A stretch of DNA of 64,000 nucleotides from Hyphomicrobiales bacterium (GTDB lineage: Bacteria > Pseudomonadota > Alphaproteobacteria > Rhizobiales > Rhizobiaceae), in NCBI GenBank assembly GCA_900469445.1, contig UBXM01000011.1, forward strand, positions 1 to 64,000, written 5' to 3'. Shown here one piece after another: positions 1,295-3,711 of the stretch (within the stretch, counting starts at the first letter, position 1; every line of letters begins with the position of its first letter). The translations under genes and the position numbers were made by a program. The notes beneath the pieces were generated by a model, which worked only from the letters and a program-made list of their open reading frames with translations, ran no database searches and was not told the origin of the DNA.

Positions 1295-1323
1295 GGGTGC
1301 TCGATGCAATGGCGGAGAGTGAC

Positions 1324-3711
1324 ATGACGGATAACGGGACCTCACATCAGGCGCGCTACAAGGTTGGCGGCATGGATTGCGCCAGCTGCGCGACGAAGAT
1401 CGACACGGCCGTGCGGCGCGTTTCCGGCGTCGAGGATGTCTCGGTTTCGGTTGCCGCCGGGACCATGACGGTAAGCCACGATGGCAGCGTCGATCTTGTC
1501 GCCATGGAAAAAAAGGTGTCCGGACTGGGCTATTCCTTGCGGGCATTGGGTAAAAAGGGTGCCGTCGACACCGGCCCCTCATCCCCCTGCCGGCACCTTC
1601 TCCCCGCAGGCGGGGAGAAGGGGACCAGCCGCGACGCCGAGGTTCCCCCTCGCCCCGTGCACGGGGAGAGGGTCGCCGAGCGAAGCGGAGGCGGGGTGAG
1701 GGGCTCCGTTGACCACGAGCACGGCCCCAGCTGCAGCCATGATCACCATGGGCATGACCATCCACATCACCATGGCGGCGGGCATGATCATGCGGATCAT
1801 GACCATGATCACGCCGAAGTCGAAGGCCTGCATGGGCACGATCACACGCCGATGGATGGGCCCTGGTGGAAATCGAAGAAGGGTCGGCTGACCATTCTCG
1901 TCGGCTTGGTGCTGGTGATCGCCTATGGGCTTGGGCATCTCGTTCCGGCCTATGACAGTATCATCTTCACCGTCGCGATGCTGATCGGTCTCGTGCCGAT
2001 CGCGCGGCGGGCGATCATGGCGGCTTTCGCCGGCACGCCGTTTTCGATCGAGATGCTGATGACGATTGCCGCGCTCGGCGCCGTCATCATCGATGCATCG
2101 GAAGAAGCGGCGGCCGTCGTTTTCCTATTTCTGGTCGGCGAGCTTCTGGAAGGGGTCGCAGCCGGCAAGGCGCGTTCCAGCATTCAGAGCCTCACGGCGC
2201 TGGTGCCGAAGACGGCGCTGCTGGAGGACAACGGCAAGACACGCGAAGTGCCGGCGGAAAACCTCGCCGTCGGCTCCGTCATTCTGGTGCGGCCGGGCGA
2301 CCGGATTTCGGCCGACGGCATCATTGTTGCAGGGACAAGCGCCATCGACGAGGCGCCGGTGACGGGTGAAAGCACGCCGGTTTCCAAGAGCGAAGGCGAG
2401 CAGGTTTTTGCCGGCACGATCAATGGCGATGCGGCGCTGCGCGTCCGCGTGACGGCTGCCGCCGAAGACAATACGATCGCCCGCGTTGTGCGGCTGGTGG
2501 AAGAGGCGCAGGAAAAGAAGGCGCCGACCGAACGCTTCATCGACCGGTTCTCGCGTTATTATACGCCCGGCGTGGTTGTGGTCGCGGCGCTGGTTGCCAT
2601 CCTGCCGCCGCTTCTTGCCGGCGCGGACTGGGGTGAGTGGGTCTATAAGGGGCTGGCCATTCTTCTGATCGGCTGCCCGTGTGCTCTGGTCATCTCGACG
2701 CCGGCAGCAATCGCCGCCTCGCTTTCGTCCGGCGCTCGTCGGGGCCTGCTGTTGAAGGGCGGCGCGGTACTCGAGACACTCGGCAAGCTGACGGCTGTCG
2801 CTTTCGACAAGACCGGAACGCTGACCTCCGGCAAGCCGCAGGTGACCGACGTGATCGCCTTCGGCCGGAATGCAGATGACGTGTTGCGGATTGCGGCGGC
2901 GCTTGAAACCGGCTCCAGCCATCCGCTGGCAATGGCAATTCTGGCCAAGACTGCCGAATACGAGCTGGATATTCCTGTTGCAAGCGAGGCCAAGGCGCTG
3001 GGCGGCAAGGGCGTTACGGCGGTGGTCGATGGCGCTGAGGTGTTTCTCGGATCGCCAAAGGCGGCGGTGGAGCGGGTGTCGCTGCCGATGGCGCATTCGC
3101 GGCAGATCACCGGGCTCAACGACGAGGGCAAGACGGTTTCCGTGCTCGTCGTCGGTGGTGTTCTGGCCGGGGCGATCGCCATGCGCGACGAACCGCGTGC
3201 CGATGCGAAGGCCGGGCTGAAAGCGCTTGCCGATCTCGGCGTGACGACGGTTATGCTGACCGGCGACAATGCCCGCACGGCAGCCGCGATCGGCAAGGAT
3301 CTCGGGATAGAGGTGCGCGCCGAGCTGATGCCGGAAGACAAGCAGCGTATCGTCGGCGAATTGCAGCGCGACGGGTTTGTCGTCGGCAAGGTCGGCGACG
3401 GGATCAACGACGCGCCGGCATTGGCTGCTGCCGATATCGGCATTGCCATGGGCGGCGGCACCGACGTTGCTCTGGAAACGGCCGATGCGGCGGTGCTGCA
3501 TGGCCGGGTGTCGGATATTGCCGGAATGATCGACCTGTCGAAGCGGACGATGCGCAATATCTGGCAGAACATCACCATCGCGCTTGGATTGAAGGCGGTA
3601 TTTCTGGTGACGACGATCATCGGCGTCACCGGACTGTGGCCGGCAATCCTTGCCGATACGGGCGCGACCGTGCTGGTGACGATCAACGCGCTCAGGCTGC
3701 TGCGGCGCTAG
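1324..3711 (+). CDS. zntA: Zn/Cd/Pb-exporting P1B-type ATPase
   Basis: ATP-driven export of Zn(II), Cd(II) or Pb(II) across the inner membrane; about 795 residues. Seen in order: HMA domain with GMDCASC (Cys19, Cys22), a repeat-derived linker (about 84-127), a His-rich metal-binding stretch (about 130-178), membrane helices, CPC at about 451-453, phosphorylation motif DKTGT at about 495, GDGINDAP at about 691, and the C-terminal TGAT region. The CPC plus this C-terminus fits the Zn/Cd/Pb (P1B-2) group rather than copper pumps. I chose ATG 1324 (GGAGAG upstream) because in-frame GTG 1297 would precede the predicted transcription start; ATG 1309 is also possible. Oddity: a two-hairpin rhizobial repeat is read through in frame. 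It converges with the next gene with only 13 bases between stop codons. Confidence 0.9.
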   Translation: MTDNGTSHQARYKVGGMDCASCATKIDTAVRRVSGVEDVSVSVAAGTMTVSHDGSVDLVAMEKKVSGLGYSLRALGKKGAVDTGPSSPCRHLLPAGGEKGTSRDAEVPPRPVHGERVAERSGGGVRGSVDHEHGPSCSHDHHGHDHPHHHGGGHDHADHDHDHAEVEGLHGHDHTPMDGPWWKSKKGRLTILVGLVLVIAYGLGHLVPAYDSIIFTVAMLIGLVPIARRAIMAAFAGTPFSIEMLMTIAALGAVIIDASEEAAAVVFLFLVGELLEGVAAGKARSSIQSLTALVPKTALLEDNGKTREVPAENLAVGSVILVRPGDRISADGIIVAGTSAIDEAPVTGESTPVSKSEGEQVFAGTINGDAALRVRVTAAAEDNTIARVVRLVEEAQEKKAPTERFIDRFSRYYTPGVVVVAALVAILPPLLAGADWGEWVYKGLAILLIGCPCALVISTPAAIAASLSSGARRGLLLKGGAVLETLGKLTAVAFDKTGTLTSGKPQVTDVIAFGRNADDVLRIAAALETGSSHPLAMAILAKTAEYELDIPVASEAKALGGKGVTAVVDGAEVFLGSPKAAVERVSLPMAHSRQITGLNDEGKTVSVLVVGGVLAGAIAMRDEPRADAKAGLKALADLGVTTVMLTGDNARTAAAIGKDLGIEVRAELMPEDKQRIVGELQRDGFVVGKVGDGINDAPALAAADIGIAMGGGTDVALETADAAVLHGRVSDIAGMIDLSKRTMRNIWQNITIALGLKAVFLVTTIIGVTGLWPAILADTGATVLVTINALRLLRR
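1573..1704. repeat. Full rhizobial palindromic element inserted in frame inside zntA
   Basis: Outer arms CCCCTCATCCCC (from 1576) and GGGGTGAGGGG (to 1702) are inverted copies. Between them are a perfect hairpin with 12-base arms (CCTTCTCCCCGC 1596-1607 against 1610-1621) and a second palindrome centred on GTGCAC near 1660. This two-hairpin mosaic is the form of rhizobial RIME-type repeats, normally intergenic. Here it is translated as a Pro/Gly/Arg-rich linker between the HMA domain and the His-rich region. Confidence 0.85.

Follow-up and report, generated by a model that had tools for sequence, protein, structure and literature searches.

How does a palindromic repeat come to lie within the reading frame of a metal pump gene, and what becomes of it there? 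Until now, coding palindromes have mostly been regarded as peculiar to Rickettsia and Wolbachia, apart from scattered intragenic REPs in other organisms. In rhizobia, RIME1 has two large palindromes. RIME and the AB and C palindromes of Sinorhizobium are multi-copy intergenic repeats according to the accessible part of PMC2573895. The stretch of 64,000 nucleotides analysed here (the window), which starts at base 1 of contig C41 of its genome (G000), raised the question when an earlier note proposed that a rhizobial repeat of two hairpins with inverted outer arms had been inserted in frame into its zntA gene.

The element and the pump that carries it

Hairpin searches, RNA folding and a reading of the outer arms bore out the two-hairpin structure proposed for positions 1573-1704, for which both the length of 132 bases and the translation into a linker of about 44 residues were correct (Table 1). 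The predicted RNA fold of the element reached -93.6 kcal/mol, against a mean of -69.27 (sd 4.02) for dinucleotide shuffles (z -6.05), and none of the 200 shuffles was as low. Inspection of the open reading frame showed that it remains open across the element, from the ATG to the stop codon, and together with the Pfam matches placed the repeat in frame between the HMA domain and the His-rich region, as had been claimed. An Rfam scan of the whole 64,000-nt window gave no match at or above a gathering score.

Table 1. Coordinates of the features in the window
Feature	Position	Strand	Remarks
Palindromic element, 132 nt, type A left half with the right end of an A/D variant	1573..1704		Reads as ZntA residues 89-132
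Outer inverted arm, left, GGCCCCTCATCCC	1573..1585		Read from sequence; pairs with the right arm in the fold
Hairpin 1	1596..1621		12-nt arms, 100% complementary
Hairpin 2	1647..1672		15-nt arms, 93% complementary
Outer inverted arm, right, GGGGTGAGGGGC	1693..1704		Read from sequence; pairs with the left arm in the fold
Right part of another family copy, cut by the contig start	1..34		Read; BLAST of a part: 90% over 21 nt, E 0.006
zntA-type P1B ATPase gene	1309..3711	+	ATG 1309 (alternative GTG 1297); Pfam and NCBIfam
HMA metal-binding domain, residues 17-75	1357..1533	+	Pfam PF00403, 52.2 bits; AlphaFold
His-rich region 3' of the element, bounds approximate	1711..1848	+	Sequence; within the stretch of pLDDT <50

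The protein has the domains and motifs of a ZntA-type P1B ATPase. Pfam matches on residues 1-800, counted from the ATG at 1309, comprise HMA (17-75), E1-E2 ATPase (298-478) and HAD hydrolase (495-709), and the CPC (456-458) and DKTGT (500-504) motifs are invariant across 23 ZntA sequences. In NCBIfam, TIGR01525, TIGR01512 and TIGR01511 exceed their cut-offs; two zinc-specific models give the top scores, yet these lie below their own cut-offs. An AlphaFold model computed from 23 aligned ZntA proteins was moderate as a whole (mean pLDDT 65.1, pTM 0.38), with block means of 81-90 at residues 11-80 and, at residues 83-182, a predicted stretch of pLDDT <50 without secondary structure. A role of the insert in metal handling would seem unlikely. 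Directly upstream of zntA, positions 1270-1284 read CTCTAGTGACTAGAG, which we take to resemble a MerR-family operator-promoter.

A mosaic family of multi-copy repeats

Searching the element against rhizobial genomes, as the earlier note had suggested, did reveal further copies. Within G000, BLAST gave at least 92 alignments in at least 40 distinct places, a lower bound because 40 of the 81 first-look candidates were scored, and many of the alignments are sub-hairpins. The best other full-length copy among those scored showed 83% identity (E 1.2e-30), and the window element is 80-94% identical to other type A copies of its genome, most of which consist of two hairpins within about 125-160 bases. 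The variant right end of the window copy is shared with few copies (e.g., L032 and L042), and the whole element matches, in reverse and with 75% identity, the type D element of G071, so that the family is a mosaic. Outside G000, the type A consensus matched 339 plasmid records, mainly from Rhizobium and Sinorhizobium, and gave at least 34 alignments in G006 (40 of 61 candidates scored) and at least 48 in G003 (40 of 95). No match to the element was found in a phage collection.

In regard to mobilization, a RAYT-type mobiliser for the family was rejected, since a scan of G000 for Y1_Tnp gave a single match, whose 3.35 kb locus contains neither an A nor a B palindrome. This sole match (L438, G000:C69:108130-108483) resembles an IS200-type transposase with small hairpins of its own. 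Moreover, the family repeats seem to break the assembly, as the window contig starts within a copy and contigs C39, C46 and C55 of G000 also start near family copies.

Few of the tested copies pass as in-gene

In order to be counted as in-gene, a copy had to be crossed by an open frame that extended for 50 codons or more to either side, with a codon score above 0.1 on both. Thirty type A loci were taken from each of G000, G006 and G003, and 6 of these 90 were too short, leaving 84 tested. Three passed, namely ZntA of G000 and the CopA of G000 and of G006; the other 81 failed, a result that alone does not prove an intergenic position for each of them. The copies are the best-scoring ones and hence a non-random sample in which eroded insertions would be missed, and looser criteria added only ambiguous cases. 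The type B census, which drew 60 loci from two genomes and counted each arm of a pair, yielded ZntA of G077, FtsY of G000 and candidate L320, which passed the codon score and had no Pfam match. The type D census, covering 27 of 30 loci, yielded ZntA of G079, the window ZntA and candidate L461, which also passed the codon score within an 837-residue frame that looks like an antisense one.

Other candidates were discarded. At L037 the 3HCDH and thioesterase-like domains all lie downstream of the element, which probably precedes the start, whereas at L223 two coding stretches that differ in frame meet at the element; opposite-strand frames at L300 and L314 were set aside as the same place as FtsY. 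A DMT transporter was named under 8 of the 60 plasmid matches listed, and in the one examined the frame ends inside the element, which is not an internal insertion. In this case (L360, NZ_CP013565.1 350605-350744), the C-terminal codons and stop of a Rhizobium phaseoli DMT-family transporter come from a copy of the element. The residues PGSEKRQA make up 72-83% of the four longest palindrome peptides tried and 65% of the B arm, values given without a computed background.

Different palindromes at the same ZntA linker

ZntA was located in 46 of the 57 genomes of the genus, that of the window included. By peptide and DNA, 18 of these 46 genes have a palindrome-derived linker, intact in 11 (G000, G001, G002, G013, G014, G062, G071, G076, G077, G079 and G080) and eroded or altered in 7 that were classed by peptide similarity (G006, G015, G022, G024, G027, G034 and G063). 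The linkers comprise type A, as in the window, type B, B with an inner insertion, a half of type C, C joined to B, and type D. The type B peptide resembles PPSALPGISPSRGEI. A and B have similar left halves when compared by eye, the C half is one end of a reversed B, and type D and the window element are members of one superfamily in opposite orientations; the linkers of G077 and G062 hold the full C+B composite. The longest exact stem was rejected as a classifier of these linkers, because G016 and G003, with no recognised palindrome, have exact stems of 11 and 10 that enclose long loops. Among 80 named ZntA loci, 14 of them unparsed, the readable linkers of Agrobacterium, Shinella and the Rhizobium leguminosarum group showed no such peptide by eye.

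As a separate observation, the zntA frame of G062 (L150) is broken between the HMA domain and the core, and its FtsY row (L386) also fails to read through; as both frames fail there, an assembly error at G-runs is possible in this genome.

A tree of the ZntA catalytic region was built with 45 rows, leaving out G061, whose stretch was unrecognised and whose linker has no palindrome. Carriers occupy all 8 rows of the window clade (support 96) and all 9 rows of the galegae clade (support 100), to which G076 adds a single hairpin; the remaining 27 rows have no palindrome-derived linker. The ZntA of G070, adjoining the window clade, is free of a palindrome, and none was recognised in the linkers of the clades lying between both carrier clades. 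In the nearest supported clade of the window ZntA, 5 of 6 members carry B or B with the inner insertion. The proposal of a single insertion therefore stood in part: a multi-copy element does lie in frame, but an insertion into an empty linker does not agree with the type B palindromes of the nearest clade members. Since each of the rows closest to the window carries B, with or without the insertion, the type A copy probably replaced or overwrote an older type B palindrome in its lineage. The flanks differ too much among relatives for a target duplication to be seen and, with an exact empty site lacking as well, insertion and exchange are indistinguishable at this site.

A second pump with the repeat in both orientations

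A CopA-type ATPase of G000 holds another type A copy in frame (L038, G000:C37:18377-18437 plus a second hairpin), again between the HMA domain and a His-rich stretch, where it is read forward and in the frame that ZntA also uses. The CopA linker of G006 contains the whole element in reverse (80%), and those of G024 and G027 encode nearly the same reversed peptide. A peptide-specific role is thus disfavoured, as the linker is forward in G000 and reversed in three sister species, with unrelated peptides. Clear palindrome-like linker peptides were seen by eye in 8 of the 57 CopA rows of the genus (G000, G003, G006, G013, G019, G024, G027 and G070) and eroded ones in three (G009, G015 and G034), G066 being uncertain; one row was unparsed, about a dozen are a different form of CopA, and the DNA-level test covered G000 and G006.

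Coupled changes in FtsY

The FtsY of G000 (TIGR00064, 315.8 bits against a cut-off of 260.7) carries a two-armed type B element of about 230 bases, in frame within its N-terminal A domain (L300 and L361; G000:C22:56681-56910). Across the 57 genus genomes, a right B arm detected by pattern with a matching left arm is present in 34 of the 54 readable FtsY rows, three of which (G017, G066 and G070) have another palindrome family in both arms. The duplex energies of the arms, from -58.9 to -122.9 kcal/mol, compare with control minima of -33.0 to -49.9. The left arm is damaged in G021, and the right arm was not found by pattern in 20 of the 54 rows, with partial traces in G015, G032 and G065. In other genera of the family, 7 of 20 FtsY rows look similar by eye. 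Palindrome-like paired peptides were noted in the FtsY A domains of such genera at L420, L421, L426, L427, L429, L431 and L433, some of their left arms reading differently.

Coupled changes were counted on a MAFFT alignment of the 34 rows, with the structure drawn from one row (G014) and with related rows that are not independent events. In the long-range helix between the arms 96.5% of the cells are paired, against 48.9-57.6% when one side is slid by 1-3 columns, and changes on both sides occur at 7 pairs (shuffled mean 3.5; reached by 1 of 500 shuffles). The local hairpins are paired in 94.8% of the cells and show 25 double-change cells (shuffled mean 6.4; reached by 0 of 500), with 3 double-change pairs (reached by 87 of 500) and 11 further pair types (154 of 500) that are both within the shuffles. 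A detailed view of columns 35 and 45, an intra-arm pair of two second codon positions that specify either Ala-Gly or Val-Asp, gives 17 UA, 13 CG, one AU and one GC, with none of 32 unpaired. Each arm behaves as a hairpin of its own, as this pair holds while column 35 does not pair across the arms in 11 of the 34 rows. Genomic B arms show the same coupling and are complementary in 58 of 59 cases, in a set that includes gene copies.

Origin and turnover of the coding palindromes

Altogether, we regard it as quite probable that a mosaic rhizobial palindrome fills the disordered linker of ZntA in frame, and that genic copies survive in tolerant linkers where they are later exchanged and eroded. 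Copies would enter many places, and inside genes they would survive only if the frame stays open and the Pro/Gly/Ser/Arg-rich peptide, of the sort that GC-rich palindromes are expected to encode, falls in a disordered linker able to tolerate it. A resident palindrome could afterwards be eroded or exchanged, the latter through renewed insertion or because repair copies another palindrome of the genome into its place, so that different families and orientations would succeed one another at a single site of the protein. For ZntA the most likely outcome would be an extended linker that the protein tolerates and that hardly affects transport. A wider reading, in which we place as much belief as doubt, is that palindromes are, in this lineage, a renewable source of disordered linkers in ZntA, CopA and FtsY, which unrelated or inverted palindromes fill again and again, and that the FtsY hairpin dictates the paired changes from Ala-Gly to Val-Asp within one arm; these would arise through compensatory changes at second codon positions, owing to selection on the hairpin or to copying from other palindromes.

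The relatedness of the types, seen in the left halves of A and B, in the C half as a reversed B end and in the reversed 75% match of D, would also be expected if one ancient palindrome had entered the ZntA linker and diverged in place, with A, B, C and D as its descendants. The C+B composite of G077 and G062 could then yield the halves by deletion, and the same alternative is left open for Rickettsia in the accessible part of PMC3767692. We nevertheless find this history doubtful: the window copy is 80-94% identical to the A copies of its own genome while its nearest sisters have B, no palindrome is recognised in the clades between the two carrier clades, and CopA carries the family in opposite orientations in close relatives, although an inversion through the outer arms could explain the orientation. 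An artefact of assembly or gene calling, which the contigs starting close to family copies (C39, C46, C55 and that of the window) might bring to mind, is hardly credible for a zntA copy 1.5 kb inside its contig, with its frame open, both of its sides belonging to one gene in relatives, and palindromes at the same linker in independent assemblies of sister species.

A different view is that the hairpins are kept by selection, whether for an RNA or DNA structure (e.g., translation pausing between domains) or for useful linkers. The FtsY arms, nearly constant while the spacer between them diverges, would fit it, as would the column 35-45 pair without an unpaired case in 32 and the excess of long-range pairing over slid alignments. 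However, copying from genomic palindromes would give an equal pattern, the genomic B arms being complementary in 58 of 59 cases, and neither the double-change pair count nor the further pair types are unusual against shuffles. Moreover, the right arm was not found by pattern in 20 of 54 rows, so that the FtsY element is dispensable, and we consider selection on the hairpins an unlikely explanation.

Relation to known palindromic elements

The parallel with palindromes inside rickettsial genes that the earlier note drew is apt, to the extent that PMC3767692 is accessible. In the available parts of PMC3767692 and PMC10969869, the palindromes of Rickettsia and Wolbachia are about 100-150 bp long and lie in frame inside genes at solvent-exposed places, with different groups sometimes at or near one site, and the question of a hotspot is left open. 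In-frame palindromes with different types at one site are common to both cases, as far as those parts go. The element described here likewise lies in frame with conserved protein on both sides (ZntA and CopA) and in a predicted fold-tolerant place (residues 83-182, pLDDT <50). The encoded peptide, however, is not conserved, as G000 reads type A forward in both ZntA and CopA, and G006, G024 and G027 read it in reverse in CopA. Other differences are the free-living Rhizobiaceae host, the GC-rich and mosaic elements, the 3 of 84 tested A copies that pass as in-gene and the use of one linker in both orientations.

In this line, the accessible part of PMC3733652 describes REPs within genes of several species, among them two Xanthomonas species whose recB genes have differing REPs at much the same site, so that palindromic repeats inside genes of several species are shared with the GTAG/CGTC REPs of that source. 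The elements described here differ in being longer and two-hairpin, with metal pumps and FtsY as carriers instead of DNA repair genes. The GTAG/CGTC tetranucleotide is absent from the ends of the window element as read, and the only Y1_Tnp gene of G000 is not flanked by the A/B repeats. The likeness to RIME, which is one of description, lies in two palindromes with inverted outer arms and in the many rhizobial copies that the available text of PMC2573895 gives for RIME; whereas RIME is described there as intergenic, the window copy lies inside zntA. The outer arms also form terminal inverted repeats as in MITEs, and regarding target duplication no empty site with similar flanks was present among the ZntA linkers compared. 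The palindromic element of PMC6280393 is a regulator site in the part of that paper available, and was discarded as a precedent. Our search of the open-licence literature turned up nothing on in-frame rhizobial palindromes of P-type ATPases or FtsY, which leaves the absence of such a report unproven.

What the coding palindromes mean for rhizobia

With in-frame palindromes already known in Rickettsia and intragenic REPs elsewhere, those of rhizobial pumps and FtsY are a further variant. This variant occurs in a cultivable, free-living group, in many species, in a metal pump and in the essential gene ftsY, and with a history that can be read on a tree. It makes it testable whether the different palindromes at one site stem from renewed insertion, from copying between repeats or from the divergence of a single insertion, the question left open for Rickettsia in the accessible part of PMC3767692. 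It also offers a case where the choice of amino acids that change jointly appears to lie with hairpins at the DNA level and not with the protein. Given the other palindromes at the same ZntA site in relatives and the repeats in CopA and FtsY, palindromic repeats seem to be a means by which disordered linkers in proteins are formed and renewed.
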